From Desulfobacteraceae bacterium (GTDB lineage: Bacteria > Desulfobacterota > Desulfobacteria > Desulfobacterales > Desulfosalsimonadaceae), in assembly GCA_014237465.1 (NCBI GenBank), contig JABZFM010000007.1, positions 186,001-250,000 of the forward strand: a DNA stretch of 64,000 nucleotides. The letters run 5' to 3'. This document shows positions 3,436-44,059 of the stretch, piece by piece. Position numbers and translations under genes: made by a program. Within the stretch, counting starts at the first letter, position 1. Every line of letters begins with the position of its first letter. The notes under the pieces are model-generated. The model saw only the letters and a list, made by a program, of their open reading frames with translations, was not told where the DNA came from and did not search any database.

Positions 3436-3455
3436 GAAAAACGCTCCTATTTCTT

Positions 3456-20066: not shown

Positions 20067-21257
20067 GTGCTAAGAAAGTGGGGAGAGGAGAGATACGCTC
20101 CTATCAGGAGGCAGGTCGATGATGATTGGAAGGAGCATAAACTGATCAAGCCTCTGTTTAAGGAGGTACTGGTTGATCTTGGAGTCGCCGGGGCGATGTT
20201 TCCACTTGAGGTTGGGGGCTTAAATGTTACACGCACCGGCACCTTTTCTGCCGTTCTGTGTGAAGAGCTTGGAAGGATTGACCTTGGATTTGCTGCCGCC
20301 TGCTTCTGCTCAGTCTGGCCCATGATGCCTATTATGATGGAGCCGCATCGAAATATGGAATTATGTGAGGAGTTTGGAGAGAGATACTGCGGAGATGAAT
20401 TATGTATGGGTTGTAATGCTATGACCGAACCACCGAGCGGTTCGGATGTCGAAAACCTGGGTCTACTGCATGGGAAGACAATACAAACAACAGCCAGATT
20501 GGATGGCGATAATTGGATAATCAATGGTCATAAGATATGGCCGACAAATTCGGGCGATACGGCAGATCTTTTTGGCGTGTTGTGTACAACTAGTAAAGGA
20601 TCAACGGATGAAAACGATATTGCCTATATCTATGTTCCTGCCGATACTCCGGGTGTTAGTACAGGGGGGCCCTATCGTAAAGCGGGCTGTTCGGCGGATA
20701 TGAATACAGATATTTGGTTTGAGGATGTGAAAGTCCCGAAGAGATACCGGGCACATGGCCCCGGCGAGGATGTCAAGTATCTGAGGGAGATGTTAACGTA
20801 TACAAATATAATGGTTCCTGCGGCATGTGTAGGGATGATGAAGGCAACTTATGAAATAATTAAGAAGTGGTCTTCCGAGAGGGTTGTAGCCGGAAAGATC
20901 CTGAAAGAGCACAGCATTAACGCCGCAGTCCTGGCAGAGATAGCCATTAATATTGAATCGACATCAGCGTGGGTATATATGATGGCAAGGGAACTCGACT
21001 ATCCCGAGGAATATGGAATGAGACCATGGGAAGATAGAATGTATTACAGAACCTGTGGTCTTAACCTGTTTGGAACCGATGCTGTAGTTCACGCTACGGG
21101 GAGAGCAATGGAGCTTATGGGTAGTTATGGCTATTGTTGTGAATTTGATCTCGAAAAGATATGGAGGGACGCGAAGATGACGAACCTCTGGGAAGGTGGC
21201 AGGCATCTGGATCTTATAGAATGTGCCAGGTACTGGTATGATCTTGAGACAATATGA
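20067..21257 (+). CDS. Acyl-CoA dehydrogenase
   Basis: The 396-residue protein shows the acyl-CoA dehydrogenase fold: a helical N-terminal region with PLEVGG, the FAD/substrate loop NAMTEPPSGSDVENLG, NGHKIWPTNSG in the beta domain, and the C-terminal helices ending in MGSYGYC and NLWEGGRHLDL, where the Glu of WEGG is at the place of the YEG-type catalytic base. It desaturates an acyl-CoA between C2 and C3 and passes electrons to ETF; etfBA lie in the same cluster. The only start is GTG at 20067, and about 15 residues expected before MLRKWGEERYAPI are absent; a MITE-like element ends 11 bases upstream, so the N-terminus may have been clipped. First gene after the sigma54 promoter. Confidence 0.9.
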   Translation: MLRKWGEERYAPIRRQVDDDWKEHKLIKPLFKEVLVDLGVAGAMFPLEVGGLNVTRTGTFSAVLCEELGRIDLGFAAACFCSVWPMMPIMMEPHRNMELCEEFGERYCGDELCMGCNAMTEPPSGSDVENLGLLHGKTIQTTARLDGDNWIINGHKIWPTNSGDTADLFGVLCTTSKGSTDENDIAYIYVPADTPGVSTGGPYRKAGCSADMNTDIWFEDVKVPKRYRAHGPGEDVKYLREMLTYTNIMVPAACVGMMKATYEIIKKWSSERVVAGKILKEHSINAAVLAEIAINIESTSAWVYMMARELDYPEEYGMRPWEDRMYYRTCGLNLFGTDAVVHATGRAMELMGSYGYCCEFDLEKIWRDAKMTNLWEGGRHLDLIECARYWYDLETI

Positions 21258-21309: not shown

Positions 21310-21735
21310 ATGGCAGTTTTGTATCCTTCCAATGAGTGGGCTGAGGCGTTCTGTAAAGCTATAAATAATGATAAGACATGTGCTGAGAAGGGGAAGAAAT
21401 GGGGGGTTGACTTTAAAGGTGATTTTCTCTTTGAGTTACATCCGGGTGCAGGGTTAGAAAAAACTACCTATGTGTATATTCCGCTAAAGGCAGGGAAATG
21501 TGAGGGGGCTCGTCTCATTAATGACCCTTCAGAGGTAGATCAAGGAATCCTTTGCATCGGGCCCTACGAGGAGTACAAAGCAATTGTTAAGGGGGAATTG
21601 GATTTTATCGACGAGCTCATTAAGGGAAAGTTGAAGCTGAAGGGTGATATGACAAAAGTGGTTAGGAATGCCATGTTTCTGCGGGCAGTGAGTAGTTTAT
21701 TAACGTCCATTGAAACGACATTTCTCGGTGAATAG
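21310..21735 (+). CDS. SCP2-like sterol/acyl carrier domain protein (first of three)
   Basis: The 141-residue protein resembles SCP2 domains: an alpha-beta fold with a strand run (YIPLKAGKCEGARLI), then ILCIGPYEEYKAIVKGELD, then FIDELIKGKLKLKGDMTKVV, where I-x-G-x-L-K-L-x-G is the SCP2 signature. SCP2 proteins bind hydrophobic ligands such as sterols or acyl-CoA in a tunnel. Related copies lie at 22136 and 28206 in the same cluster. GGAGG precedes the ATG by eight bases. In context it may carry or present the CoA-bound substrate, but that is inference. An IS630 fragment follows directly. Confidence 0.75.
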   Translation: MAVLYPSNEWAEAFCKAINNDKTCAEKGKKWGVDFKGDFLFELHPGAGLEKTTYVYIPLKAGKCEGARLINDPSEVDQGILCIGPYEEYKAIVKGELDFIDELIKGKLKLKGDMTKVVRNAMFLRAVSSLLTSIETTFLGE

Positions 21736-21760: not shown

Positions 21761-22093
21761 TTGGATTCCTTTATCTTGTTTCTGACACAGCATCACCAGA
21801 GATTTGCGGGCAAAACCCTGGCCATTATATTGGATAACTCGAGTATTCACGCCAGCAGGAAGGTAAAGAGATATTTGCAAAGGTTTCCTCGGATTCATCT
21901 TTTTTTTCTTCCCACCTATTCGCCGGAATACAACCCGGTGGAGAGAATATGGGGATGGATGAAGACCAAGGTTTACGGTTTTACTGCCTTTGGCGGGATA
22001 AATGAATTGATCAGACGTTTTCGGAAACTGTGCTGGCATTTTAACATGGGCAGGCTCGTCAAGCCCATTCGTCCTCAACGTTACTCAAAATAG
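21761..22093 (+). pseudogene. C-terminal fragment of an IS630-family DDE transposase
   Basis: About 110 residues read LAIILDNSSIHASRKVKRYL and FFLPTYSPEYNPVERIWGWM, the second and third catalytic blocks (D and E) of IS630-type transposases. The N-terminal two thirds with the first Asp are missing and an in-frame TAA at 21749 closes the upstream side. It sits between two SCP2-like genes of the cluster, in the same direction, and does not break either frame. No terminal inverted repeats were recognised. Confidence 0.85.
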
Positions 22094-22135
22094 CAAATAT
22101 ACTTTTCAACTATACAATTAAGAGAGGTGGTCAAT

Positions 22136-22507
22136 ATGCCAGAGGTGAAGGTAAAAGAGGGGGAGGAGCTTAATGGACTGGGATTTATGCTCAAGGATTT
22201 GATGGATAGAAATCTTATAAACCCCCAAAAATATAAGGCTGTTAAGAATATGAAGGGTAGAGTGGTTATTAAGGAGAGTGGAACCGGTGTAGCCATTACA
22301 CTCAGTTTTAGAGAGGGTGAGATAGAGATACAAAATGGTGCTGTAGATAAGCGGAGCGCATATATGGAAGCCAGCTTTAAGAACCTGGCTGGAATTAGTT
22401 CCGGTCAGATCGGGCCGGTAAGGGCTCTACTCACCGGAAAAGCGAAGGTCAGAGGCAACCTCTTTAAACTATTGAAGATTTTAAAAACATTGATACCGGA
22501 AGAATAG
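22136..22507 (+). CDS. SCP2-like domain protein (second of three)
   Basis: From the ATG at 22136 (AGGTGG upstream; a GTG at 22127 is also in frame) the product has 123 residues. It keeps the SCP2-type pattern in the second half: GRVVIKESGTGVAITLSFRE, AYMEASFKNLAGISSGQIGP, then RALLTGKAKVRGNLFKLLKI, again with the G-x-A/L-K-V-x-G signature. It is shorter in front than the first copy. It lies 13 bases before the AOR gene and is very probably co-translated with it. A lipid or acyl-CoA carrier role is inferred. Confidence 0.72.
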   Translation: MPEVKVKEGEELNGLGFMLKDLMDRNLINPQKYKAVKNMKGRVVIKESGTGVAITLSFREGEIEIQNGAVDKRSAYMEASFKNLAGISSGQIGPVRALLTGKAKVRGNLFKLLKILKTLIPEE

Positions 22508-22520
22508 GAGGCGGCTAAAA

Positions 22521-24380
22521 ATGTTTGGCTATATGGGGAAGATTTTAAGGGTTGACCTATCGGAGTCCAGTATCTCAGAGGAGACTCTTTCAGAGGATAT
22601 GTGTAAGATGTTCCTAGGCGGCAGCGGGATGGCCACAAAATATCTTTTCGATGAGGTGCCGAAAGGTGCAGATCCCCTTGGTACGGATAATGAGCTCATA
22701 TTTATGACGGGTCCACTGACGGGAACCATTGCTCCGAGTTCCGGAAGGTTCAGTGTTGTGGCAAAATCACCGCTTACCGGCTTATGGGGACATGCAAACT
22801 CAGGTGGGTTCTGGGGACCAAAACTGAAAAGAAGCGGTTTTGACGGGATAATAATTCGCGGTATATCAGCAAAACCGAAATATCTTGTGGTTGATAATGG
22901 AAGCGCTGAGCTTCGAGACGCAGAGGGAATCTGGGGAGAGAGCGTCTTTGAGACTACAAAATTGCTTCGACAGAAGTTTGGTAAGAATTCTAATGTTGCC
23001 TGTATCGGGATCGGGGGTGAGAAACAGGTAAGATATGCTGCTATTATGAATGAAAATCATCGGGCACTTGGAAGATGCGGGATGGGGGCTGTAATGGGCT
23101 CAAAATTTTTGAAGGCTATAGTTGTTAAGGGTGGCCAGAAGATACAGACCGGCAATAAAGATGCCTTTGATAAAGCGGCGAAAGAGGCATACGCGCTTGT
23201 TGACGAAAGTCTTCTAAAGATAACGCTTGAGGTTTACGGAACCAATATGGGTCTTGATCTCACGAATATAAGGGGCGGATTGCCTACAAGGAACTGGCAG
23301 ACCGGTGTTTTTCCTAATACAGATGCAATAAACGGACCTGCAATCATCGAAAAGATACTTACAGGTAGAAAAGCCTGCTTTGCCTGTCCAATCAAATGCG
23401 GGAGGCTTTCAGATGTCAAGGAGGGACCGTACGCATGCGAGGGGGAGGGACCGGAATATGAGAGTGTTGGAACCTTGGGAACAATGTGTGGAATTGGTAA
23501 TTTAGAGGCAATTACAAAAGCGCATATATTGTGCAATGAGTACGGATTGGATACAATCTCAGCCGGCAGTACCATAGCGTTTGTTATGGAATGCTATGAG
23601 AAGGGAATTATAACAAAATCGGAGACTGATGGATTGGATCTGAAATTTGGAGACGCTGATGTTATGATTGAACTTGTACATAAAATAGCCAAAAGAGAGG
23701 GTATCGGAGATCTGTTGGCTGAGGGGACGAAAAGGATATCTGAAAAGATAGGTAAGGGGACTGAAAAATTTGCCATGCATGTTAAGGGTCTTGAGCTGCC
23801 CGCATATGACCCAAGGTCTGCCAAAATATGCGGACTGGCATACGTTACTGCAAATCGCGGGGGCGACCATATAACGGCTTATGTTGAGGGTCCAGCTATC
23901 CTCGATATTCCCTTTATGATCATCGAAAAAAGCACCATCGAGGATCCCCTTATTGAAAACCCGGAGGAGGCTGAGGTTGTAAAGGATATGGAGGATGCCT
24001 TCGCCATCTTCGATGCAGTGGGGTTGTGTAAATTTATGGGAGTGGCTCTGACTGCTGAGGAGGTCACACCGATGATCGCTAATGCAATCGGCAGGGATTT
24101 TGATGTGGATGAATTTAAGAAAACAGGAGAGAGGGTATATAATATTGCAAGAGCCTTTAACGTAAGAGAGGGATTGACAAAAGCCGATGACACTCTTCCG
24201 AAACGCTTATTGGAGGAACCTATGCCCGAGGGTGAAGCCAAAGGACATGTGGTGGAGAAGCTTGATCAGATGTTGGATGCATATTACGAATTTCGTGGAT
24301 GGGATAAAGGAACCGGCAAACCGACACCGGAAAGGCTTAAAGAGCTGGGGCTGGATGATATAATCGACAAGATATATTAA
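22521..24380 (+). CDS. Aldehyde:ferredoxin oxidoreductase (tungsten/molybdenum pterin enzyme)
   Basis: The 619-residue product is a full-length AOR: N-terminal GYMGKILRVDLSESSI, pterin-binding GRFSVVAKSPLTGLWGHANS, the Fe-S motif CFACPIKCGR with a further Cys in FDAVGLCKFMG, and the catalytic-site blocks EGPEYESVGTLG (Glu) and RGGDH (His). AORs convert aldehydes and water to acids and reduce ferredoxin, reversibly. AGGAGG precedes the ATG. In this cluster it could make the acid that the ligase at 26435 activates and supply reduced ferredoxin for the ATP-driven reductase. It resembles ordinary AOR rather than the BamB subunit of class II benzoyl-CoA reductase, as no BamC-I genes accompany it. 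Confidence 0.93.
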   Translation: MFGYMGKILRVDLSESSISEETLSEDMCKMFLGGSGMATKYLFDEVPKGADPLGTDNELIFMTGPLTGTIAPSSGRFSVVAKSPLTGLWGHANSGGFWGPKLKRSGFDGIIIRGISAKPKYLVVDNGSAELRDAEGIWGESVFETTKLLRQKFGKNSNVACIGIGGEKQVRYAAIMNENHRALGRCGMGAVMGSKFLKAIVVKGGQKIQTGNKDAFDKAAKEAYALVDESLLKITLEVYGTNMGLDLTNIRGGLPTRNWQTGVFPNTDAINGPAIIEKILTGRKACFACPIKCGRLSDVKEGPYACEGEGPEYESVGTLGTMCGIGNLEAITKAHILCNEYGLDTISAGSTIAFVMECYEKGIITKSETDGLDLKFGDADVMIELVHKIAKREGIGDLLAEGTKRISEKIGKGTEKFAMHVKGLELPAYDPRSAKICGLAYVTANRGGDHITAYVEGPAILDIPFMIIEKSTIEDPLIENPEEAEVVKDMEDAFAIFDAVGLCKFMGVALTAEEVTPMIANAIGRDFDVDEFKKTGERVYNIARAFNVREGLTKADDTLPKRLLEEPMPEGEAKGHVVEKLDQMLDAYYEFRGWDKGTGKPTPERLKELGLDDIIDKIY

Positions 24381-24393
24381 AGGGAGTTCTTAG

Positions 24394-25140
24394 ATGAAAA
24401 TTCTTGTTACAGCCAAGCGGGTCACTGATCCGGATATGAAAATCAAAGTCAAGGAAGATGGTTCCGGTATTGACCTGTCCAGCATGAGCTATAAAGTCAA
24501 TCCGTTTGATGAAATCGCCATTGAGGAGGCACTTCGCATAAAGGAGGACAAAGGTGGAGAAGTTATTGTTGTCGGCATCGGAAGCGACAAGGCCCAGACC
24601 GAAATCCGGTACGGGTTGTCCATGGGGGCGAATCGGGGAATTCATGTCCAGGTAGACGGGTATATGGATTCAGACGTTGTCGCACGGATTCTTAAATCCA
24701 TTGTCGAAAAGGAACAACCTGACCTGGTGTTGCTGGGAAAACAATCTGTCGATGATGACAACAATCAGGTTTCGCAGTTGCTGGCTGAATATCTGGGATG
24801 GGGACAGGCGTGCTTTGCGTCAAAAATTGATGTAAATGAAACCAAAGCGATTGTTGAGCGGGAAGTGGACGGGGGGATTGAAATAATGGAGATTGATCTT
24901 CCAGGTATTGTCAGCGCTGATCTCAGGCTCAATGAACCACGCTATCCGGCATTGCCGGCGATTATGAAAGCCAAGAAAAAGGAACTGAAAAAGATGAACC
25001 CCGAAGAACTTGGCGTGGAGATTTTGCCGAAAGTAATTATCAAAAAGATGGCCGAACCGCCCCAGCGAAAGGGTGGCCGGATATTGGAAGATGTCCCTGA
25101 ATTGATTCGTGCCTTAAAAGAAGAAGCAAAAGTGATATGA
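24394..25140 (+). CDS. etfB: Electron transfer flavoprotein beta subunit
   Basis: The 248-residue protein has the EtfB features: start KILVTAKRVTDPDMKIKVKE, nucleotide-fold DLVLLGKQSVDDDNNQVSQL, and the ETF beta signature ADLRLNEPRYPALPAIMKAK. ETF takes two electrons from acyl-CoA dehydrogenases and passes them on to a membrane quinone reductase or a bifurcating complex. etfA follows after 86 bases. Arginine codons are mostly CGN here, whereas the flanking AOR and ligase genes prefer AGA/AGG, so the etf pair probably has another origin or was inserted into the cluster. The acyl-CoA dehydrogenase at 20067 is the likely donor. Confidence 0.95.
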   Translation: MKILVTAKRVTDPDMKIKVKEDGSGIDLSSMSYKVNPFDEIAIEEALRIKEDKGGEVIVVGIGSDKAQTEIRYGLSMGANRGIHVQVDGYMDSDVVARILKSIVEKEQPDLVLLGKQSVDDDNNQVSQLLAEYLGWGQACFASKIDVNETKAIVEREVDGGIEIMEIDLPGIVSADLRLNEPRYPALPAIMKAKKKELKKMNPEELGVEILPKVIIKKMAEPPQRKGGRILEDVPELIRALKEEAKVI

Positions 25141-25226: not shown

Positions 25227-26186
25227 ATGTCCAGCGTTCTTTTAGTTGTCGAACATAATAAACAGAAATTGAAAATGGCCACGCTCAAGGCTCTGACGTT
25301 TGGCCGTCAGGCCGCTGAAAAGCTTAACACCCAGTTAGACCTCCTTGTTATAGGTCATGAGGTGGAGGCGGTTGCTAAGCAATTACAATCTTATGGTGTG
25401 AATACAATCTATCTTGTTGAGGATTCGGCATATAAAAATTATACCGCTGAAACCTGGGGCCATGTGACCGCTGAAGTCGCAAAACAAAGTGATGCAGTGC
25501 TCATCGGAATGAATACCGGAACAACCGGAAGAGATCTTATGCCGCGGGTCGCAGCCAAGCTCAACGCCGGAATGGTTACTGATTTGATTGATTTTGACGG
25601 GGACCTGTTTGTGCGTGAGATGTGGGCAGGTAACGTAAGGGCCTTTATCGAAGTCACCACACCGATTACCGTAGTATCTATTCAGGGGACGGCATTTGGT
25701 GCAGCAGAGCCTGGCGGCAACGAAAGTTCTATCACCCGGCTTGAGATACCTGTGCCAAAGACAAAAACACGATTTTTGAAAATTCGGGAGAGTAAAAGCG
25801 ATCGGCCGGACCCGACAGAGGCCAGGGTGGTGGTATCCGGTGGCAGAGGGATGAAATCCTCGGAAAATTTTAAACTCATTGAATCGTTAGCTGACCTTTT
25901 CGACGGTGCTGTGGGTGCCAGCCGGGCCGCTGTAGACTCGGGCTGGATATCCAATGACCTTCAGGTGGGCCAGACCGGTAAAACAGTGGCCCCTGATCTT
26001 TATATTGCCGCAGGTATTTCCGGTGCCATCCAGCATCTGGCCGGCATGAAAAACAGCAAAGTGATTGTAGCGATCAACAAGGACGAAGAGGCGCCGATTT
26101 TTGAAGTGGCAGATTTTGGTCTTGTTGCGGACCTTTTCAAGGTTGTGCCGGAACTCACGGAAGCGCTTAAAAAGGAACTGGTTTGA
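25227..26186 (+). CDS. etfA: Electron transfer flavoprotein alpha subunit
   Basis: The 319-residue product contains the N-terminal half-fold common to ETF subunits and the C-terminal FAD domain with [34 protein letters not shown] and [20 protein letters not shown], followed by [19 protein letters not shown]. These are the EtfA signatures for binding FAD. It pairs with EtfB. AAGGAG lies before the ATG. Downstream, only 29 bases away, a truncated ferredoxin frame begins. Codon use matches etfB. Confidence 0.95.
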
Positions 26187-26434: not shown

Positions 26435-28102
26435 ATGCTTTCTGCCACTGACAAGCCCTGGCTTAAAAGCTATAAGCTGGGGCCATTTAAGCTTGAGCAG
26501 ACAAAGGAACCCTATGAGAAGATTACTGTTCATAGCCTTCTGGATTCTACAGCAGATAATTATTCCAGAAAAACAGCCTGTTATTATTTAGGGAATGAAA
26601 TAAAATATAAAGACTTGAAAATCTTTGCGGATAAGCTGGCAGCTGCTCTTGCGGATCTGGGTGTTAAGAAAGGCGATAAGGTAGCAACAATCCTTCCGAC
26701 CTGCCCGCAGTTTATAATAAGCGATTTCGGGATACTAAAGGCTGGGGCAGCGCATGTTCCATGCAGTGTTTTGCACAAGGCGGATGATCTGATATATGAG
26801 ATCGGCGAATCAGGGGCTGAGATTGTGATTTGCTTGGATAGCTCTCTCGAGCTTGTTGAGTCGATAAAGGATAAGACAAAACTCAAGACAATAATTATTA
26901 CCTCTCTTATGGATTATTCATTGGAGAAGCCTGAATTAAAGCAGATAGCAGGCACATATCAGTTTCTTGACTTAATAGAAAAATACGAGCCCAAGCCTCC
27001 TGATATTGAGATCGACCCGATGGAGGATCTGGCAATTCTTGTTTTCACGGGGGGGGCAACAGGATTACCGAAGGGTGTAATGCTAACTCATTACAACCGG
27101 GTGGTAAATGTAACACAACTTTCATGGGGGTTTGAGCCCTTGGAGTCAGGAATCAGAGGGAAAGCCTCCATAGCCATGCCTATTTCCCTCTTCCATCAGT
27201 ATGGTCACTGCATGATGCACTTTGCAATCAATTGGGGACTCAAGATGTATCTGATTCCGGATCCGAGGGATACGGATATGCTCATACAACTGTTAACTAA
27301 ATATCGTCCTTTCCTATGTACCTGTGTGCCTACTCAATACACAAAGCTGATTTCGAAAGGAGTGAAAAGGACACAGACGGTGTTTATGTCTACTGCATCC
27401 GCTCTTGCTCCTGAGACTGCTCAGAAATTCAAGAAACAGAGCGGCGTGCCTATAACTGAGGCTTATGGTTTAACCGAAACAGGCGGGGGTACACATCTCA
27501 ATCTTTCAGCTTTTTCTAAGATGACCGGATTTGTATTGGCGGAAAAGCTCGGTTCGATAGGGGTACCGATGCCGGATACGGAAGTAAAGATTATTGGCCT
27601 TGGGACTGACGAGGAGGCTCTTCCGGGAGAAGAAGGGGAACTGTATGTTCGCGGCCCGCAGATTATGAAGGGTTACTGGCCCGAAACCAGCAGAGGATTG
27701 GTAGATGGATGGCTTCCAACCGGTGATGTCGTAAAAATGGATGATGAAGGATATTTTTACATAACAGACCGGGTCAAAGACATGGCAAATATCTCCGGGT
27801 ATAAGGTATATACAAGGCTGATCGATGATATTCTCTATGAGCATCCAGCGGTTGCAGATGCAGCGGCAATTGGACTTCCAGATCCAGAGCGTCCCGGAAG
27901 TGAGAGGATAAAGGCATTTATAATACTGAAAGAGGGAGAGAAGATAACCGCCGATGACATAATCAGCCATTGCAAGGAGAAGCTCCCTCCCTATGCCGTT
28001 CCGAAGTTCGTTGAATTCAGGAAAGAACTGCCTCTCACGGTCACGGAGAAGCTTTTTAAGAGGCAGTTAAGGGAGGAAGAGATAGCTAAAAATGAAGTCT
28101 AA
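26435..28102 (+). CDS. AMP-forming acyl-CoA ligase
   Basis: The 555-residue protein has the adenylate-forming order: P-loop LVFTGGATGLPKGVMLTH (with FTGGATG instead of the usual YTSGTTG), ITEAYGLTETGG, GWLPTGDVVKMDDEGYFYIT and DRVKDMANISGYKVY, ending PLTVTEKLFKRQLRE, which holds the late catalytic Lys. It activates a carboxylic acid with ATP to acyl-AMP and then acyl-CoA. AGGAGG precedes the ATG. It sits between etfBA and the third SCP2-like gene and would feed the BcrBC-like reductase downstream. Whether the substrate is aromatic, alicyclic or fatty is open; the overall look is nearer to fatty-acyl than to benzoate ligases. Confidence 0.92.
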   Translation: MLSATDKPWLKSYKLGPFKLEQTKEPYEKITVHSLLDSTADNYSRKTACYYLGNEIKYKDLKIFADKLAAALADLGVKKGDKVATILPTCPQFIISDFGILKAGAAHVPCSVLHKADDLIYEIGESGAEIVICLDSSLELVESIKDKTKLKTIIITSLMDYSLEKPELKQIAGTYQFLDLIEKYEPKPPDIEIDPMEDLAILVFTGGATGLPKGVMLTHYNRVVNVTQLSWGFEPLESGIRGKASIAMPISLFHQYGHCMMHFAINWGLKMYLIPDPRDTDMLIQLLTKYRPFLCTCVPTQYTKLISKGVKRTQTVFMSTASALAPETAQKFKKQSGVPITEAYGLTETGGGTHLNLSAFSKMTGFVLAEKLGSIGVPMPDTEVKIIGLGTDEEALPGEEGELYVRGPQIMKGYWPETSRGLVDGWLPTGDVVKMDDEGYFYITDRVKDMANISGYKVYTRLIDDILYEHPAVADAAAIGLPDPERPGSERIKAFIILKEGEKITADDIISHCKEKLPPYAVPKFVEFRKELPLTVTEKLFKRQLREEEIAKNEV

Positions 28103-28205: not shown

Positions 28206-28694
28206 ATGAAATGCGAATTTCCGAGTCCAGAGTGGGTAGCAGCTTATGAAAAAGCGACCATGGAAGACGATGTGCTCAAGGGGTTATTAAAAAAATGGGA
28301 TGCTACTGTTTGTACTTACTTTCTAGCTTACCCGAAGATCGGGATGGATGAAGACGTAAGCGTACTTCTTGATTTAAGGGGCGGTGTCGCAAGATCGGCC
28401 AAGCTTGTTCCTATAGAGGAGGGCCGGGATGCGGATTTTGTCTTTTCTGGGATATATGACAAATGGAAACTGGTAATAAGGGAGGAGCTTGATCCTGTGA
28501 GGGCTGCAATCTCGGGCCAGCTAAAGCTGACGGGTTCTTTGCCGACCATTGTGAGAAACATTAAGTTAATCAAGAGACTGGTGAAATGCACCAGTCTTTT
28601 TGATAGTGTTTTTCCAGATGAGTATGATGACCCATCCAAACTTGATGAGTATAAAGCCTACATCAAAAAATTTAGGTCTGAATTAAAAGTATAG
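28206..28694 (+). CDS. SCP2-like domain protein (third of three)
   Basis: The 162-residue protein aligns by eye with the first copy at 21310: both begin with P-S-x-E-W-x-x-A, keep a YDKWKLVIREELDPVRAAIS segment and then GQLKLTGSLPTIVRNIKLIK, matching GKLKLKGDMTKVVRNAMFLR of the first copy. It has an acidic C-terminal addition (DEYDDPSKLDEYKAYIKKF). An AAAGGAG site lies before the ATG. It precedes the reductase genes by about 125 bases and a 16-bp palindrome. An acyl-CoA or lipid binding role fits SCP2 proteins; the partner is not known. Confidence 0.75.
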   Translation: MKCEFPSPEWVAAYEKATMEDDVLKGLLKKWDATVCTYFLAYPKIGMDEDVSVLLDLRGGVARSAKLVPIEEGRDADFVFSGIYDKWKLVIREELDPVRAAISGQLKLTGSLPTIVRNIKLIKRLVKCTSLFDSVFPDEYDDPSKLDEYKAYIKKFRSELKV

Positions 28695-28819: not shown

Positions 28820-29971
28820 ATGATGAGTGTACAAAAAGGAGCATTGAAGGAGTTATTGGAGATTCCTGATCGGAGGGATAATCCTTATGTTAAGAAATGG
28901 CATACCGATGGGAAATACGTGATCGGCTACATGTGTAACTACGTACCTGAGGAGATTATCTGGGCTACTGGAATGCTGCCATACCGATTAGAAGCAAGGG
29001 ACTGCGCTCAAACAGACGAAGCGGACGTGTGGATGCATCGCTTTAATTGTAGCTATACCCGTTCTATTCTTCAGTTAGGTCTTACTGGGGAATATGATTT
29101 TCTTGATGGTATTTGCTTTCTGAATGGGTGTGACCAGATGCGCCGCACGTATGAACTCTTGGCATCCAAGGCAGCTAAGAAGCCAATGTGGCAAGGCATG
29201 ATAGCCATCCCACACTACCTTGGTGATAATGCGTTTAAATGGTACAAGGAAGAGCTTTACAATATTAAGGAAGATCTGAGAAGTTATTTCGGAGCCAAGA
29301 AGGTAACCGATGAAGAACTGTGGGATGCAATAATACTTTATAACAAGAGCAGAAAGCTTATAGGGAAACTTTACGACCTGAGGAAGGAAGAAAATCCTCG
29401 CATTTCTGGCGCAGACGCATTCAAACTCACTTTAGCAGCCTTTTATATGGATAGGAACATATATAATAAATTACTGGAGGAAGCATTAGGTGAGATCGAG
29501 AAAAGGGAACCAGTTTCTGGATACAGGGCGAGAATCATGATAGGAGGTTCTGCCCTTGACGACCCTTCCTTTATTGAGCTTATCGAAGGTAGAGGAGGCC
29601 TGGTAGTAACAGACACAATGTGTTTTGGCACCAGATTCTTCTTCGATCTTGTCGAGGAAAAAGATGGTGACCCCATGGAGGCCCTGGCGAAACGGTACTT
29701 TTATCATAATCCGTGTCCACGTATGGTCAAGGAATATGGCAGAAGAATGGAGTTTACTGAAGATCTCGCAAGAGGAGCCAAGGTTGACGGTGTTATCTTG
29801 GAAAGGATGTCCTTTTGTGATCTTCATGGAGTAGATTCTCCCACAATAGCAAAAGATCTGGAGACCATGGGTATTCCAGCCATGGTACTGGAAAAGGAAT
29901 ACTATATGCTCCCTGATGTCGGGAGATTTCAGACAAGGGTTGAAGCATTTATTGAAAGAATAGAAGGCTAA
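28820..29971 (+). CDS. BcrC/HgdB-like subunit of an ATP-dependent aryl-CoA reductase or 2-hydroxyacyl-CoA dehydratase
   Basis: The 383-residue protein has the cysteine contexts expected for cluster binding: HRFNCSYTRSILQ, CFLNGCDQMRRTYE and RMSFCDLHGVD. The VIGYMCNYVPEEIIWATGML start is typical of benzoyl-CoA reductase C subunits and HgdB relatives, and the length is that of BcrC/BadD/BzdN. GGAGGGG precedes ATGATG; the second ATG (28823) is better spaced. Gene order here (this gene, a larger B-like subunit, then two ATPases) equals the bcrCBAD / bzdNOPQ order of class I benzoyl-CoA reductases. It would hold the site where electrons from the activator reach the substrate. Whether it reduces an aromatic ring or dehydrates a hydroxyacyl-CoA is undecided. 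Confidence 0.88.
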   Translation: MMSVQKGALKELLEIPDRRDNPYVKKWHTDGKYVIGYMCNYVPEEIIWATGMLPYRLEARDCAQTDEADVWMHRFNCSYTRSILQLGLTGEYDFLDGICFLNGCDQMRRTYELLASKAAKKPMWQGMIAIPHYLGDNAFKWYKEELYNIKEDLRSYFGAKKVTDEELWDAIILYNKSRKLIGKLYDLRKEENPRISGADAFKLTLAAFYMDRNIYNKLLEEALGEIEKREPVSGYRARIMIGGSALDDPSFIELIEGRGGLVVTDTMCFGTRFFFDLVEEKDGDPMEALAKRYFYHNPCPRMVKEYGRRMEFTEDLARGAKVDGVILERMSFCDLHGVDSPTIAKDLETMGIPAMVLEKEYYMLPDVGRFQTRVEAFIERIEG

Positions 29972-29993: not shown

Positions 29994-31463
29994 ATGAAAG
30001 AGGAAGAAAAATTAAAGGTACCGGGATATGAATATTTCAAAGAAGCAAGTACTGCGTCTCAAGCAGCCTGCTTCGTCTTAGGCTTTGACGAAGTTGATTG
30101 TTTAGATGATATTGGAGGACAACAGTTCCTTGTGGATGAAGTACTCCCTAAAGAGTATGCGAAACCGTTTAGTCATATAAACCTTTATACGGTTGATAGT
30201 CTTCTCCGTCCCGTGAACAAAGAACTGGGAATGGTGGTGGCTGAAGTTCTCAGGGATTGGAACATGCTTGCGGCTGAGTCTTTTGTGGAAAGAGCGGAGA
30301 GAGGAAAGAAGATATGCTATAACTATTTTACCCAGAGTCCGGAGGTAATACTTGCTCTGGATATGGTCCCTATGTGCGTGGAAGTTATCGGTGCCATAGA
30401 TGCGCTGCTTTATGATGCTGATACCTGTTCAGCTTCCGTCGATAGATTCGAAGCTGAGGGATACCCAGACTTCCTGTGTTCGGGCCAGAAAGTTGCGCTG
30501 GGCATGCATCTTCTTGGAAAAGTACCCTGCCCGGATGCATTTCTTAAGCAACCGTCTATATGTGACCCCAGTAACGCGCAGTATGATTGGTGGGCGGAAA
30601 AGTGCAAAGTTCCCCATATACTTTTTGAAGCCCCTTACTACGCAAATGAGCGGGCATTTAGATTTTTTTTAAGTGAATATAAAAGGCATATAAAGGAACT
30701 GGAGGAACTATCAGGAAACAAACTCGATGAAGGTAAGCTTAGAGAGTATGTGAAACTTGGGAATGAGGCACTTAGCTATCATTTGAAGACTCAGGTTCTA
30801 AAGGCAGCTGTTCCCTGTCCTGATACGGGATGGCATGCCATCATAGATTCGGCTGCGTTGACAATGTTGGGACAGCCCTATGCTTTAGATTTTTTTAAAG
30901 CGAACTATGAAATTGTAAAGGGTAGAGTAGACAGGGGGGAAGGTGTAATCCCTGAAGGAAAAGAGGAGCTAAGGTGTTACTGGGGGTGGGGATTCAATGG
31001 TTATGACCTGCACTTTATGGACTGGCTTGAGGATGAGTATGGTGCAACATGGACCGGATGTTCTCTCAGCTATATACCCAAATTCGTTGGGCTTGTAGAT
31101 ACGACGAATATGGATACCATGATCGAGAGCCTGGCATGGAGGATGTTCAACTGGCCCATGTCAAGACAGGGCATGAGTTTCTCTGAACTGTGGGTAAATG
31201 ACACGCTTAGCGCAGCCAGGGAATTGAAGGCGGACTGTTTAATGATGGGGACGCACAGGTCATGCAGACATTTTTGGGCACTTAATAAAATATTAAGCGA
31301 TCGGGTCACAGATGAATTAGATATCCCCAGCCTTAGATTCGAATTTGATCTATTTGAACACAGGTTTACTCCTGACTCCGAACTTAAGAAGATCACCGGC
31401 GATTTCTTATCTTCATTGAACTATAGCAAGTTACACAAGAAGAGGGAGGCGAGATACAAATGA
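29994..31463 (+). CDS. BcrB-like subunit of an ATP-dependent aryl-CoA reductase or dehydratase
   Basis: The 489-residue product has superfamily features: an N-terminal extension of about 100 residues, KKICYNYFTQSPEVILALDM, DFLCSGQKVALGMHLLGKVP, the HILFEAPYYANE block, and a late MGTHRSCRHFWALNKIL cysteine. It is somewhat longer than BcrB/BzdO (about 430-450). It forms the heterodimer partner of the 28820 product, 22 bases upstream, and overlaps the first activator gene by ATGA. Together with two activators this is a four-subunit set. The pair at 2176-4583 is a second, more distant version of the same superfamily. Confidence 0.87.
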   Translation: MKEEEKLKVPGYEYFKEASTASQAACFVLGFDEVDCLDDIGGQQFLVDEVLPKEYAKPFSHINLYTVDSLLRPVNKELGMVVAEVLRDWNMLAAESFVERAERGKKICYNYFTQSPEVILALDMVPMCVEVIGAIDALLYDADTCSASVDRFEAEGYPDFLCSGQKVALGMHLLGKVPCPDAFLKQPSICDPSNAQYDWWAEKCKVPHILFEAPYYANERAFRFFLSEYKRHIKELEELSGNKLDEGKLREYVKLGNEALSYHLKTQVLKAAVPCPDTGWHAIIDSAALTMLGQPYALDFFKANYEIVKGRVDRGEGVIPEGKEELRCYWGWGFNGYDLHFMDWLEDEYGATWTGCSLSYIPKFVGLVDTTNMDTMIESLAWRMFNWPMSRQGMSFSELWVNDTLSAARELKADCLMMGTHRSCRHFWALNKILSDRVTDELDIPSLRFEFDLFEHRFTPDSELKKITGDFLSSLNYSKLHKKREARYK

Positions 31464-32263
31464 CGGGCATAGGATGTGACAGCGGAGCATTAGAAACAAA
31501 GGTTGTTGTTCTCAAAGATGAGACAGTAGTAGCGTATGATATTACTCCCACTGAAAGCAGGCCTGCTGAGGCAGCTCAGAGGCTTACGGAAAAATTACTT
31601 TCTGATCTGAGAATCCCCCTTGATGAGATTGAGTACTATGCAAGCACGGGATGGGGGGGGAAGTTTGTGCCGTTTGATCATAGTGATGAGAATCCGGCGC
31701 TTAGCATCTCCAGAGGAGTGTACTGGGTAGTTCCAACGGCAAAGACCATTGTTGATGCAGGTGGTGTAAGCGTTATGGCAGTCAGGCTCAGTGAAGAAGG
31801 TACACCTTTAGAGTACAGGATAAATGACAAATGTGCTTCGGGATCAGGGAGGTTTGTAGAGATTGTCGCCGAGGCTCTTGAGCTGAAGATCGATGAAGTT
31901 GGTGATTTGTCGTTATCTGTACCTGTCAAGGAAAGAGTGAACATCACCAATCAATGTGCTGTATTCGGGGAAAGCGAGGTGATTGGTTACGTGAATAGAG
32001 GCATAGCAGCCAGTCGTATTATGGCAGGGGTATGCTACTCTGTAGGCACTGGTTTTTCGACTATAGCGAAAAGGCTTGGTATTAAGAAGGATTGTGTGTT
32101 GATAGGTGGTGTGGCAAAGAATAAAGCTGTGGTCAGTGCGTTCGAGGAAAACACCGGCATACAACTCACAGCACCTGGTGAATTCGATCCTCAGATTATA
32201 GGTGCTGTGGGAGCAGCGCTATGCGCCCGTGACAGGAAAGAGGAGAGCTATAATGATGGATAA
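31460..32263 (+). CDS. Activator ATPase 1 (ASKHA family, HgdC/BcrA-D-like)
   Basis: The 267-residue protein is a complete ASKHA-type activator: GIGCDSGALETKVVVL (phosphate 1), TGWGGKFVPF, VDAGGVSVMAVRL (phosphate 2), YRINDKCASGSGRFVE and ITNQCAVFGESEVI, whose two cysteines bind the [4Fe-4S] cluster bridging an activator dimer, then VLIGGVAKNKAVV (adenosine). Such proteins hydrolyse ATP to push a ferredoxin electron into the catalytic heterodimer. VDAGG has lost the Q/D of the usual DIGGQD, unlike the second activator. Its ATG overlaps the stop of the BcrB-like gene. The two different activators suggest a heterodimer as in class I benzoyl-CoA reductases. Confidence 0.9.
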   Translation: MTGIGCDSGALETKVVVLKDETVVAYDITPTESRPAEAAQRLTEKLLSDLRIPLDEIEYYASTGWGGKFVPFDHSDENPALSISRGVYWVVPTAKTIVDAGGVSVMAVRLSEEGTPLEYRINDKCASGSGRFVEIVAEALELKIDEVGDLSLSVPVKERVNITNQCAVFGESEVIGYVNRGIAASRIMAGVCYSVGTGFSTIAKRLGIKKDCVLIGGVAKNKAVVSAFEENTGIQLTAPGEFDPQIIGAVGAALCARDRKEESYNDG

Positions 32264-33068
32264 TTCGATGATTGTTGCCGGGGTTGACGTGGGATCACTA
32301 AGTGGTGAAGCTGTTATTATGAGTAATGGCAATATACTTTCACAGGAGATTATCAGGGTAAGACCCCTTCCTGAACAGACGGCAAATGATGTAACGATAA
32401 AAGCGCTTGAGAGTGCCAAGTTATCCCTTGATGACATTGATTATTGTGTGAGCACGGGATATGGAAGGGAGATGATTCCTTTTGCTAATGGAAGTATTTC
32501 GGAGATATCTTGTCATGGCAAGGGGGCTTTCTGGGCGACTCCAAGCGTGAGGACGGTAATTGATATAGGGGGTCAGGATTGCAAGGTGATCAGGGTAGAT
32601 GATAAGGGAAACCTCTTGAATTTCATGATGAATGATAAATGTGCTGCGGGAACGGGGAGATTTTTGGAGGTGATGGCAAAGACCTTAGGTGTAGAACTTC
32701 GGGAGTTAGGGCCTCTCGCGCTCGAGTCGAAGGCTCCGACTGGCATCACCAGCATATGCAGCATAATATGTCAGTTTGAAGTAATGATGCTGCTCAATGA
32801 GGGAAAAGATCGACCTGATATAGCAGCGGGTATCAGTAAGGCTATGGCACGTCGAGTGATGCGGTTGGTAAAGGGTGTAGGGAAAAAGAGCGATGTGGCG
32901 CTTACAGGAGGGGTAGCCAAGAATCCTGCAGTGGTGAAAAGCCTGCAAGAATTTTTAGAAATGGAGATAGTTAAGTTAGATATTGATCCACAGATCGTAG
33001 GAGCCCTTGGTGCAGCCCTTGTTGCCACGGAAAGGCTCAAGAAAAAACTCCAGAAGGAGACTATATGA
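32253..33068 (+). CDS. Activator ATPase 2 (ASKHA family, HgdC/BcrA-D-like)
   Basis: Starting at ATG 32253 behind AGAGGAGAG (271 residues), the protein has VAGVDVGSLSGEAVIM, STGYGREMIPFA, VIDIGGQDCKVIRVD, MMNDKCAAGTGRFLEVMA and DVALTGGVAKNPAVVKSL, the standard activator motifs. The second cluster Cys lies in SICSIICQFEVM, where the normal context is C-x-V-F-A-E-S-E-V; the acidic E is replaced and an extra Cys follows. It overlaps the end of activator 1 and ends with ATGA over the next gene. It is diverged from activator 1, consistent with non-identical ATPase subunits (as BcrA and BcrD). Confidence 0.9.
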   Translation: MMDNSMIVAGVDVGSLSGEAVIMSNGNILSQEIIRVRPLPEQTANDVTIKALESAKLSLDDIDYCVSTGYGREMIPFANGSISEISCHGKGAFWATPSVRTVIDIGGQDCKVIRVDDKGNLLNFMMNDKCAAGTGRFLEVMAKTLGVELRELGPLALESKAPTGITSICSIICQFEVMMLLNEGKDRPDIAAGISKAMARRVMRLVKGVGKKSDVALTGGVAKNPAVVKSLQEFLEMEIVKLDIDPQIVGALGAALVATERLKKKLQKETI

Positions 33069-33838
33069 CAACACAATCAAAAAACGAGGTGATAGCCGTA
33101 GGTGGAAGAGGAGGGAGTGGAAAGACCACCATTTCTGCAATAATGGCTAAGATTTTCGCCGCGGCTAATAAGAAGGTACTCGTGGTGGATGCTGATCCTC
33201 CGGCAGACCTGGCTTTTTCATTGGGGGTGGATCCAAAAGGAAAGACTATAGGAGCAGAACGAAAAAAATTAGGTAGGGACCCTGAAGAGAAAAGGCGGAT
33301 AGCAAATAGGCATATGAGGGATATCATCTCAGAAGAGTTTATTATTAATGTGAATGGGATAAGCTTACTCGTAATGGGCAGGGCAGAGGGGCCAGGATGT
33401 TATTGTGCCATTAATGAACTTTTGAAATATGGCATTGAGTCTCTTTCAAAGATGTTTGAGATCACAATTGTTGACTGTGAGGCTGGTATAGAGCAAGTAA
33501 ACAGAAGGGTGCTTGCGGGCGTGACTACGATGATAATGGTTTCTGATACTACGCAAAAAGGGATTCGCACAGCATCTTACATGAAAGAGATTGCTGAATC
33601 TTATGGTGTGGAAGAATCATATAAGATAGGATTGGTTCTCAACAAGATGAGGAAGGACAGGGAGGAGATAAAAGAAAAGGCTAGGGAGATGGGTTTAGAG
33701 ATATTTGGTGTTATTCCGGAGGAAGAAGACCTGTCCAGATATGGTTTGACCGGGAAACCGATAATCGAGCTTCCGGATAACTCTCCAAGTGTAGTAGCCG
33801 TTGGAAAAATTTTAAAAGTTCTTGGCTTAAATTTATAG
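33065..33838 (+). CDS. CooC/AcsF-like MinD-family ATPase with CxC metal motif
   Basis: The 257-residue protein has a deviant Walker A loop GGRGGSGKTT (residues 13-22), DADPPADL, and GRAEGPGCYCAINELLKY with cysteines at 112 and 114, followed by TIVDCEAGIEQVNRRV and VSDTTQKGIRTA. The CxC pair in GPGCYC is the metal-binding motif of CooC and AcsF, ATPases that help insert nickel into CO dehydrogenase and acetyl-CoA synthase. Its start overlaps the stop of activator 2, so it belongs to the reductase operon although no nickel CODH is nearby. It may help assemble a metal cluster of the reductase or the AOR; that is inference. Confidence 0.88.
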   Translation: MTTQSKNEVIAVGGRGGSGKTTISAIMAKIFAAANKKVLVVDADPPADLAFSLGVDPKGKTIGAERKKLGRDPEEKRRIANRHMRDIISEEFIINVNGISLLVMGRAEGPGCYCAINELLKYGIESLSKMFEITIVDCEAGIEQVNRRVLAGVTTMIMVSDTTQKGIRTASYMKEIAESYGVEESYKIGLVLNKMRKDREEIKEKAREMGLEIFGVIPEEEDLSRYGLTGKPIIELPDNSPSVVAVGKILKVLGLNL

Positions 33839-36263: not shown

Positions 36264-36324
36264 TTTATTTCACTACACTATGGCAAACCCAATCAAAAAT
36301 TTTGTTGCTCCAACAAATCATTGT
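36264..36324. repeat. 61-bp exact repeat, copy 2 (3' end of the DUF2117-like gene)
   Basis: Identical to 17098-17158. Here it covers the last codons and stop of the gene at 36293-37354 plus 29 bases of 3' flank, so this is the original location and the copy at 17 kb is derived. Confidence 0.85.
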
Positions 36325-37354
36325 CCGCAAGTTCCACGATTCTGCTCAACACTTCCTTAAAACTCACATCAATTTGCTGCTTATTATCAAAAATGGCATC
36401 AAACACCTTTAGCCCGAATTCATCGTCCTCCCTCACGGTTAATCTCACCGATCCCGGCGCAAAATGGCCGTTTTTTAGTATCACGTCTTCGTCTCCGTCC
36501 ACAATTCCTATCACGGGAATCTGAAACCTGTACAGGATGTCCCCTGCTACAACGGTTGTATCGTCTCCAACGGTGACGACCCCTTCCATGTCGCGCGTCA
36601 GGTCATATACATGCATCCCGGCATGGTCCACAAACACGACCCCACGTCCCTTTGTTTCCGTAATACGGGGCGTATGTTTGGTGCGTCGAATCGTAGACGA
36701 TGAAGCCAGCTTGACCGTGCGCAGATCCACGCCTCCAAATCGGTCCAGCTTTTCGATCCCATGCTCCTTGACCGTGGCTCCCTGCATTTTGCAGATGTGG
36801 CCATTTTGGCATGCAAGCACGACCTGGGCACCTGTCGCCCGGCCGACCATAATACCGTCCACGAAAATGAAATCGCCGGCAGCAGCAGTCGTCATACGAC
36901 GGTACACCTTCCCATCCGCTTCCCAAACAGACGGTTTGATCTGTATTTGATCCCTTTGCGATACCCCCATTTGGCGCAATGTCTCGATGACGCGTCGATC
37001 GCATCCTTTAATCCATTCCACAAAAAAGGGACCGCTACATTCGACCTGCACGACCGGGGTGTTCACGCCTGACCGTTCAACAACCATAGCACCAAAGACC
37101 AGTCCCGAATCCACAGACTTGCCGAAGTTGACGATCAGGACCGTGCTTACCTCCGAAGCCAGATCATAAAGACACGCGCCGGGCATTTTATTCCAAAACG
37201 CGATGCCCTCCAATCCATTGTCGAATACTGCAGTTCGCCCCATGGTGCCTGCCAATACGCAGCACACCTCATCCGTTGTTTCAATTGCTTCTATGATTCG
37301 CCGCGCCCACCCGGAGTCAAACACCTCTGGTCCGTGAAACAGGAGTCCGATCAT
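36293..37354 (-). CDS. DUF2117-like protein, function unknown
   Basis: The 353-residue protein begins IGLLFHGPEVFDSGWARRII and has VCCVLAGTMGRTAVFDNGL, which recall the DUF2117 proteins best known from methanogenic archaea. The middle contains GDFIFVDGIMVGRATGAQVV and GRGVVFVDHAGMHVYDLTR, suggesting alpha-beta domains, and the end has PVIGIVDGDEDVILKNGHF. Function is unknown. It is the last gene of a seven-gene minus-strand operon for a TonB/ABC uptake system; its ATG overlaps the TGA of the TPR gene. Its extreme 3' end is duplicated at 17.1 kb. Confidence 0.65.
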   Translation of the reverse strand: MIGLLFHGPEVFDSGWARRIIEAIETTDEVCCVLAGTMGRTAVFDNGLEGIAFWNKMPGACLYDLASEVSTVLIVNFGKSVDSGLVFGAMVVERSGVNTPVVQVECSGPFFVEWIKGCDRRVIETLRQMGVSQRDQIQIKPSVWEADGKVYRRMTTAAAGDFIFVDGIMVGRATGAQVVLACQNGHICKMQGATVKEHGIEKLDRFGGVDLRTVKLASSSTIRRTKHTPRITETKGRGVVFVDHAGMHVYDLTRDMEGVVTVGDDTTVVAGDILYRFQIPVIGIVDGDEDVILKNGHFAPGSVRLTVREDDEFGLKVFDAIFDNKQQIDVSFKEVLSRIVELADNDLLEQQNF

Positions 37355-37917
37355 TTAGTCACCCCAAATAAATTTTTGTAGAGTTCAATATGCTCCCGGC
37401 TCCACACTGCATCGTGGTCATGACCATGTGCCTCCCAGTGGCGAATATTTTGTTCCCAGAGATCAATGGGCTTCCTGTAATGAGTCACATCTCTGCCCGC
37501 CTGAACCATCATCTCGGCTGCATGTTCATAAGCATCTGCTGCCAGAAAATACGCGCCTTTTCCTTCACAAAATTTTCCCAGTCGTTCGTAAACTGCAATG
37601 CCGGCGTCCCAGTTTTCCGTTCTTTCGTGGATTTGTGCCATCCGGTATGTCAGGATGACGGCAAGATCCTTGTTTCCGGCCCGTATCGCGGTCGTGAGTC
37701 CACCCTCGTATGCTGACACCGCCGCATCAGTTTCACCACGGGCTTCATACAGGTTTGCGGCATTCATATATCCGTGAATTCCCAATGTATAGCTGCCCTT
37801 AAGGGTTTTCAGGTCCGCGTACTCCTTCCATTTATCCGGATCAGAGGCGTTCTTTGCCTCACTTTCCAACTTCCGGCCCCGGTAGTAGGTATCGTCCTTG
37901 ACGACTTCCCAGTTCAT
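37351..37917 (-). CDS. TPR-repeat protein of the uptake operon
   Basis: The 188-residue product contains two to three tetratricopeptide-like helix pairs: IHGYMNAANLYEARGETDAA, then RMAQIHERTENWDAGIAVYE, then AAEMMVQAGRDVTHYRK. TPR folds mediate protein contacts. The sequence lacks a signal peptide, so it should be cytoplasmic. It is read after the Gate-type membrane protein and before the DUF2117-like gene, with AAGGAGAG before its ATG and a four-base overlap at its end. A role as an adaptor within this operon is only inference. Confidence 0.7.
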   Translation of the reverse strand: MNWEVVKDDTYYRGRKLESEAKNASDPDKWKEYADLKTLKGSYTLGIHGYMNAANLYEARGETDAAVSAYEGGLTTAIRAGNKDLAVILTYRMAQIHERTENWDAGIAVYERLGKFCEGKGAYFLAADAYEHAAEMMVQAGRDVTHYRKPIDLWEQNIRHWEAHGHDHDAVWSREHIELYKNLFGVTK

Positions 37918-37933
37918 TTATTCTCTCCTTTTT

Positions 37934-38890
37934 TTATCTCCAGATCTTAAACAACACGCCTATCAGTCCGATCATAACCACCACCCGCAGTCCGGTCGAG
38001 ACTGCGAGGACCCGTACGCCGACACCCGGGCCAAAAATCCCGAAGTAGTAAGGAACCAGATATCTAAGATTGATTCCGCTCGCCAGTAAATTCCCGATCA
38101 GCAGTGAAAGCACGACGTCTCTGCCCGTTATGCTCCCTGCATAAAGAAGATTCCCTGCCACCGTAAAAGCACCAACATTGCTTCCCAGTCGTATCGCCAC
38201 GATCGAAAGGGCCTCCGGCGTAAGAGGCACGAATGCAGTCAGAAATGCAAGCCCTTTATTCAGATGATCGAAGACTCCGGCATTAATAAGCAGGAACATC
38301 ACAAGCGTGATTGGAACCGTGGTGCATATAATTCGGAAAATAGTTTTCCGGCTCTTCTTCGCGCTGTCAACGAGGAGCTCCCAGGACATAGATGGCGTGC
38401 CTACCTTCTCAGTACAAACTTCGGAAAAGGATGGATTCCCGGCCTCAAGAAAAAACCGGCCCATCAGAAGCGCCACCACGGTTTTGATGAGACCGACCAG
38501 AACGAGAAGCCCGTAGTAAATAAGTCCGGACACACCGATCAACGGGAGAGCTACGGGCAGCATCGTCCGCCAGTGCATGACGATCCCCGGAAAGGTATTT
38601 ACGATGGCCGAAATCAGAAGCTCCCGTCTCCCGATGAGGCCCGCTTCGTGATATCGAACCAGCATCGCATTCCCGGCGGCGGGTGACAGGAACGCGGTTA
38701 GAAAGCTGGCGCCGCACTCCTTTTTCAGGTGCCCGAGAGAAGTCAAAGGGCGGGTTATCCAGGTGATCCGGTTAATCCAGCCCAATGCAACCAGAAATTC
38801 AGCCACAATCACCCCGACCGCAAAAAGGGGGAGCATCGTCGCAAGGAACTTGGCCGAAGAAATGAGCGTTGCGGTCAGGACGAGAAACAT
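37934..38890 (-). CDS. Nucleoside-recognition (Gate) domain membrane protein
   Basis: The 318-residue protein has about eight transmembrane helices and the repeated Gate-like pattern with conserved GASFLTAFLSPAAGNAMLVR and a C-terminal repeat VAIRLGSNVGAFTVAGNLLY. Gate-domain proteins include nucleoside transporter cores, FeoB pores and spore maturation proteins, where the domain lines a transport path. Here it overlaps the ABC ATPase gene by 16 bases and lies in a metal or cofactor uptake operon, so it may provide a second inner-membrane step. Related membrane proteins are common in methanogens, as is the DUF2117 family two genes downstream. Confidence 0.75.
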   Translation of the reverse strand: MFLVLTATLISSAKFLATMLPLFAVGVIVAEFLVALGWINRITWITRPLTSLGHLKKECGASFLTAFLSPAAGNAMLVRYHEAGLIGRRELLISAIVNTFPGIVMHWRTMLPVALPLIGVSGLIYYGLLVLVGLIKTVVALLMGRFFLEAGNPSFSEVCTEKVGTPSMSWELLVDSAKKSRKTIFRIICTTVPITLVMFLLINAGVFDHLNKGLAFLTAFVPLTPEALSIVAIRLGSNVGAFTVAGNLLYAGSITGRDVVLSLLIGNLLASGINLRYLVPYYFGIFGPGVGVRVLAVSTGLRVVVMIGLIGVLFKIWR

Positions 38891-40697: not shown

Positions 40698-40716
40698 GTA
40701 AAAACGCCTAAATTCC

Positions 40717-41763: not shown

Positions 41764-41782
41764 TGAGAAGTAATTTATCCAC

Positions 41783-43924: not shown

Positions 43925-44059
43925 TACAACCCCTCTATACCCTTTTGGTAATTGAATAACCTCCAATCCTTATCAGTTGAAGGAGGAAGGCCCTGGCGCG
44001 ATAAAATCACCCGAAATCGCATCCAATCATTTTACTATCCACCTGATTTCCCAATAAAA

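Follow-up and report, generated by a model that had tools for sequence, protein, structure and literature searches.

A branch of CooC-type ATPases linked to HGD-D reductases and its candidate role in reductase maturation

The operon of an ATP-driven HGD-D reductase in a Desulfobacteraceae bacterium ends with the gene of a CooC/AcsF-type ATPase, here called P0001, which belongs to a separate clade whose members lie beside HGD-D and activator genes in bacteria and in Asgard archaea. That P0001 is a dedicated maturation factor for the linked reductase is well supported. Since this CooC-type ATPase is clade-specific, is translationally coupled to the reductase here and occurs in hosts without CooS over the family cut-off, a maturation role is the simplest reading. 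The insertion of nickel or another heterometal, the client site and the substrate are what we infer beyond this. With moderate confidence we propose that the branch of P0001 serves the HGD-D reductase, and not CODH/ACS, by the metal-insertion mechanism outlined below. CooC/AcsF-type ATPases load nickel into CO-metabolising enzymes, and to our knowledge no clients other than CODH and ACS have been described for them. The equally tight link of one branch to HGD-D reductases would mean that a metal has been overlooked in a well-known group of Fe-S enzymes, or else that metal-insertion ATPases have a function still to be discovered.

The ATPase gene and its operon

The window, i.e. the whole stretch of 64,000 nucleotides that was analysed, is part of a 295-kb contig (C69) of a genome of 5.09 Mb that is 99.96% complete (G000). 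A same-strand run of genes leads from an acyl-CoA dehydrogenase-like gene to the ATPase gene:

20067..21257, + strand, acyl-CoA dehydrogenase-like protein, first gene of the conserved operon (family assigned by eye; 61-62% identical orthologue at the same place in the loci L228 and L229)
21310..21735, + strand, SCP2-like protein (PF02036, E 2.7e-3, below the cut-off; orthologue in L228 and L229)
22127..22507, + strand, SCP2-like protein (PF02036, E 3.5e-9)
22521..24380, + strand, tungsten-type aldehyde:ferredoxin oxidoreductase, AOR (Pfam; nearer to AOR than to BamB)
24394..25140, + strand, ETF beta (assigned from the sequence by eye; none in the orthologous operons of L228 and L229)
25227..26186, + strand, ETF alpha (assigned from the sequence by eye; none in the orthologous operons of L228 and L229)
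26435..28102, + strand, acyl-CoA ligase, AMP-forming (PF00501; orthologue at the same place in L226, L228 and L229)
28206..28694, + strand, SCP2-like protein (PF02036, E 1.3e-4)
28820..29971, + strand, HGD-D subunit 'b', BzdN/DCCP-like (PF06050, E 6.8e-92; BzdN, E 1e-53)
29994..31463, + strand, HGD-D subunit 'a', BzdO/HadB-like (PF06050, E 2.6e-44; profile alignment to BzdO)
31460..32263, + strand, ASKHA-type activator 1 (PF01869, E 9.9e-40)
32253..33068, + strand, ASKHA-type activator 2, BcrAD_BadFG (PF01869, E 1.8e-60)
33065..33838, + strand, P0001, CooC/AcsF-type ATPase with deviant Walker A and C112-x-C114, last gene of the operon

The reading frame of P0001 runs from ATG to TAG and encodes 257 amino acids. 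At the junction gagactatATGAcaac its ATG overlaps, as ATGA, the TGA stop of activator 2 at 33068, as had been described in the initial annotation, and AAGGAG directly 5′ of the ATG provides a good Shine-Dalgarno sequence. No terminator was found 3′ of P0001, and promoter matches were at chance level. The closest PDB entries to activator 2 are the activator of HadBC (4eht) and MbdQ. The AOR matches 9mqx (1e-160) and 1aor (3e-152) in the PDB, and BamB (4z3w) with 3e-66; by these scores a BamB-type ring reductase is a weaker fit than an ordinary AOR.

The recognition of P0001 as a CooC/AcsF-like ATPase with an intact CxC near the known position held up. In the phmmer alignment its two cysteines, found in the context GPG-C112-Y-C114, fall residue for residue on C112 and C114 of Carboxydothermus hydrogenoformans CooC1 (3kje), which is the best PDB sequence match (phmmer, E 1.9e-15) and also the top PDB match of the AlphaFold model (pLDDT 87; Foldseek, E 4e-13). 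In CooC1 these cysteines bind Zn/Ni at the dimer interface (PMC6006190). The CxC is invariant in all 221 aligned CooC-type sequences and is therefore not a chance motif in P0001. The deviant Walker A reads GGRGGSGKT; the P-loop is present, with Arg15 (33107-33109) at the position of the signature Lys. None of the other CooC-type sequences checked has this replacement, and Lys occurs in all other clade members sampled. Because of this replacement, the copy in the window might be altered in its use of ATP. No NCBIfam model reached its cut-off for P0001, so that automatic annotation would probably list it as a generic MinD/ParA-type protein.

Other features of the window were recorded. Between two of the SCP2-like genes lies a transposase-like remnant (21761-22093, IS630 type by eye); the L228 orthologues of these genes are separated by about 50 bases. 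A second HGD-D pair is located at 2176-4598 on the minus strand and has no CooC-type ATPase; the tree places its 'b' subunit among HadC-like sequences and not in the ATPase-linked clade. At 36293-43966, minus-strand genes identified by eye encode a TonB-dependent receptor and an iron/cobalamin-type ABC transporter with its binding protein, permease and ATPase.

Linkage of the ATPase clade to reductase genes

CooC-type loci were collected from 98 related genomes, from 395 genomes across the phylum and from named genomes, and the phylum-wide search used P0001 as sole query (E ≤ 1e-40). A scan of genome contigs with P0001 only gave no match; an alignment of linked homologues as query did match. 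Neighbouring genes were annotated with profiles built from the collected loci, and linkage was counted within 8 kb. One search pattern contained EAGxEQ, and the counts were therefore repeated on the loci from P0001-only searches.

In a first tree of 149 sequences (IQ-TREE), P0001 fell into a clade of 93 rows (SH-aLRT 100), 86 of them linked to HGD-D/activator genes, three with only a CdhC-like gene and four with neither, while none of the 56 sequences outside was linked. An enlarged tree of 221 CooC-type proteins (FastTree) placed P0001 in a clade of 124 (support 0.93). HGD-D (PF06050) and/or activator genes were present within 8 kb of 112 of these 124 members in comparison to 0 of 96 genomic sequences outside, and the loci from P0001-only searches, which are free of the clade bias, gave 54/61 against 0/75. 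Of the 112 linked ATPase genes, 107 share their strand with one or more HGD-D or activator genes. The co-occurrence proposed in the initial annotation as a check was thus found; the gene neither follows such clusters only here, nor do its relatives always belong to CODH loci, the two outcomes named there as counting against its reading. The non-linked clade members include cases on short contigs, e.g. L179.

The sequences outside the clade are AcsF/CooC types, many of them beside ACS/CODH, RACo or corrinoid-protein genes. Position 144 separates the groups: it is Gln in all 124 clade members (EAGxEQ) and His in all 97 sequences outside (EAGxEH). No ACS or COOS gene lies within 8 kb of any of the 124 clade members. 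Due to this lack of a nearby CODH/ACS client, we class P0001 as a separate branch that is possibly CooC/AcsF-like in action, and not as CooC/AcsF itself. CooS above the family cut-off was absent in 11 of 16 genomes with a linked ATPase, in a search limited to the CooS family and in genomes that may be incomplete, and a CooS-type CODH is therefore an unlikely client there. Of the two clients considered in the initial annotation, the co-transcribed reductase is well supported by the clade-wide linkage, while the AOR was rejected, being in the neighbourhood of only 14 of the 124 clade members. Hosts of the clade belong to the Desulfobacterota, Chloroflexota, Bacillota (including rumen and gut species), Spirochaetota and Asgard archaea. 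Some genomes (G186, G184 and relatives) encode 14 to 40 HGD-D proteins each, unusually many candidates for ATP-driven reductases.

The branch of P0001 itself comprises 14 sequences (support 0.92), 12 of them linked and none with a CdhC-like gene nearby. The genomes of the two exceptions (L224, L227) have 9 and 40 HGD-D genes, and in both an HGD-D pair is found on the contig of the ATPase at a distance of about 13 kb. G084, G077, G276, G220, G179, G462 and Candidatus Binatota loci share the order HGD-D 'b', HGD-D 'a', two activators, ATPase, and Desulfatitalea loci have the same order plus an extra activator. G179 and G462 keep the order of the window from the acyl-CoA dehydrogenase to the ATPase, at 39-65% identity, but have neither ETF nor the third SCP2-like gene in it. 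As the operon order is kept in other genomes, P0001 is an inherited member of the operon. Elsewhere in the clade the arrangement differs: Bacillota (Butyrivibrio, Ruminococcus, Desulfosporosinus) have the ATPase followed by HGD-D 'b', HGD-D 'a', activator and CdhC-like gene; in Desulfobacterota, Spirochaetota and Chloroflexota, the operon or its first half usually closes with the CdhC-like gene and the ATPase; in Lokiarchaeota the two occur together, in some cases with HGD-D nearby. The ATPase of a same-genus relative (L177) is identical to that of L114 in G001.

The source genome encodes five CooC-type proteins: P0001, one at C34:7281-8030 that also lies within an HGD-D/activator/AOR cluster, one on C29 that is of the H144 type and adjoins a RACo-like gene, one on C4 that is nearest to CooC1, and one on C61. 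The absence of CODH/ACS genes near P0001, pointed out in the initial annotation, extends to the whole contig of the window, on which no such gene was found; the five prismane/CODH matches of the genome are all on other contigs, among them C58 with the CODH/ACS cluster and C7 with CooS. The genome has twelve HGD-D genes, several without a linked CooC. The cluster on C34 (L015:4286-19531) is larger than the operon of the window, related to it and kept across the family; it contains a GMC oxidoreductase, a 495-aa protein of no known family, three HGD-D subunits, two activators, a ferredoxin-like protein, a CdhC-like protein, the ATPase, an AOR and a thioesterase-like protein. A third CooC-type subfamily (L016:5670-6419 and its relatives L057-L095) was observed near a RACo-like gene, unlinked to ACS, in most genomes of the order sampled.

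The linked reductase and the client of the ATPase

Judged by their sequences, the linked HGD-D proteins are a separate lineage of class-I-BCR-like reductases. The 'b' subunits form one clade (SH-aLRT 99) of 54 linked proteins and 8 from the same loci that are farther off or on the opposite strand; BzdN, DCCP, HadC, MbdN and the other HGD-D of the source genome fall outside it. The reductase of the window misses all NCBIfam equivalog cut-offs, e.g. bzdN with 186.6 bits against 453.8, and its 'b' subunit reaches 201 bits with the DCCP model (cut-off 350). The nine cluster-binding cysteines of BzdNO, which ligate an [8Fe-9S] and a [4Fe-4S]-OH2 cluster, are defined in PMC11971306. All are matched in the window: HGD-D 'b' keeps the six [8Fe-9S] cysteines of BzdN in the alignment (C36/73/100/263/293/327), and C162, C190 and C424 of HGD-D 'a' correspond in the profile alignment to BzdO C95/128/380, the three cysteines of the [4Fe-4S]-OH2 cluster. 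A loss of a cluster cysteine in HGD-D 'a', suspected by eye, concerned a column that is not a ligand column. Among the conserved columns inspected, no extra invariant Cys or His marks a new metal site in the HGD-D subunits.

For the proposed metal insertion we envisage that the ATPase dimerises and that the four-cysteine site formed by the two CxC motifs would bind a metal ion, most likely Ni(II). The metal-loaded ATPase would dock on the apo-reductase translated just before, and ATP binding or hydrolysis would make the metal pass to one of the cluster sites, for which the free coordination position of the [4Fe-4S] cluster in HGD-D 'a' is the most plausible candidate. Driven by low-potential electrons from the activators, the matured enzyme would then reduce the acyl-CoA supplied by the ligase of the operon. 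Several points count against this proposal: BzdNO, with the same nine ligands, acquires its clusters in E. coli (PMC11971306), the HGD-D subunits show no further invariant metal ligand, P0001 has Arg15, and in most relatives a CdhC-like protein could be the client. More tentatively, we consider it possible that the linked HGD-D proteins are a new and widespread family of Ni-Fe-S enzymes with an active site of the benzoyl-CoA reductase type, in which the family's own CooC-type ATPase completes the [4Fe-4S] cluster with nickel and a small ACS-beta-derived protein is the partner in most lineages.

The ATPase could instead be an Fe-S scaffold or carrier for the linked reductase that, for example, joins two cubanes into the [8Fe-9S] cluster or acts in repair, and no heterometal would be involved. 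MinD-type ATPases of the Nbp35/ApbC/NUBPL type carry a bridging [4Fe-4S] cluster on cysteine pairs; the window reductase retains the six double-cubane ligands, and Fe-S ligation explains all conserved HGD-D cysteines. However, BzdN obtains its double cubane in E. coli, where BzdNO was made with its clusters, and neither maturation nor nickel is mentioned for BzdNO in that work (PMC11971306); thus, such clusters need no CooC in general. Paralogues of HGD-D in the source genome without a linked CooC, a CxC of the CooC/AcsF type and CooC1 as nearest solved relative also argue against an Fe-S scaffold, which we consider rather unlikely.

Less probable still is that the ancestral client was the CdhC-like protein, in the way that AcsF serves ACS, and that the branch of P0001 acts on that protein in trans or retains the ATPase as a remnant. 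This small ACS-beta (CdhC)-like protein of about 245 aa was observed at L015:8044-8787 (minus strand) and, as homologues linked to ATPase and HGD-D genes, in about 90 loci from Bacillota to Lokiarchaeota; no description of it was found in the papers searched. Its gene lies within 8 kb of 91 of the 124 clade members. It matches ACS-beta in Pfam (E 5e-14) and ACS in the PDB by sequence (1e-9), and in a fold search every entry below E 0.001 was an ACS, with values as low as 3e-11. AcsF, moreover, reportedly acts on ACS (Gregg et al. 2016, as cited in PMC10134865). On the other hand, the C-terminal CX2CX5C, invariant in 72 of 72 sequences, provides three cysteines that presumably differ from the published A-cluster pattern, and the copy in the source genome has an adjacent ATPase of its own. 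The CdhC-like gene is never near the ATPase in the branch of P0001. No CdhC-like protein was found in G084, G077 and G062, the first two having full-length ACS only, and in G084 and G077 the ATPase nevertheless stays in the reductase operon. The client in the branch of P0001 is therefore not the CdhC-like protein, and a role of the latter as universal client was rejected for this branch.

An electron donor similar to NifH or BchL, with a [4Fe-4S] cluster on the four dimer cysteines feeding the reductase, is very improbable: NifH and BchL appear besides MinD among the fold matches of the model, and the dimer interface would bring the four cysteines together, but CooC1 and MinD are nearer matches, the CxC of CooC1 binds Zn/Ni, and the operon already encodes two activators of the ASKHA type, which is known to supply the electrons in this enzyme class. 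We give hardly any credence to P0001 being an ordinary AcsF/CooC that matures the CODH/ACS (C58) or CooS (C7) of the cell and is here by chance, given the separate clade with a reductase-linked neighbourhood in no sequence outside it, the other CooC-type genes of the genome, including those on C29 and C4, the genomes without CooS over the cut-off and the operon kept elsewhere.

Comparison with known systems

In the open-access text searched, no description of an association between this ATPase and HGD-D was found, and the module is not described in the parts seen of PMC10418091 (a preprint) and PMC7000372 (on a non-canonical acetogen). The EAGxEQ-type ATPase and the CdhC-like protein provide sequence markers for these mostly unannotated reductases.

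Among characterised enzymes, the class I benzoyl-CoA reductases BzdNOPQ and MbdNOPQ share with the window reductase two HGD-D subunits, two activators and the nine cluster-ligating cysteines; the window reductase differs from them by missing the equivalog cut-offs, by its separate clade and by the CxC ATPase that ends its operon. DCCP and HadBC likewise combine the HGD-D fold with an activator, whereas two or more of the six double-cubane cysteines present in HGD-D 'b' of the window are missing from HadC.

Nickel chaperones beside a reductase that is not known to contain nickel are found in the isoprene reductase operon, where IsrA is encoded with HypA/HypB (PMC10134865). In contrast to the operon of P0001, these chaperones are not of the CooC type, and IsrA is an FAD/Fe-S oxidoreductase and not an HGD-D protein.

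CooC1 (3kje) and the CooC proteins of CODH operons have the MinD/SIMIBI fold, the P-loop of the deviant Walker A and the CxC at C112/C114 in common with P0001. Identity to P0001 is about 25%, however, and P0001 belongs to an HGD-D reductase operon instead of a CODH operon, with Gln144 and Arg15 in place of the His144 and Lys15 of the CooC/AcsF types sampled. AcsF, with its CxC and a length of about 250 aa, resembles the clade of P0001 and is its nearest sister group in the tree. While AcsF types carry EAGxEH and lie beside ACS, CODH, CFeSP and RACo genes, the clade of P0001 carries EAGxEQ and lies beside HGD-D and activator genes.
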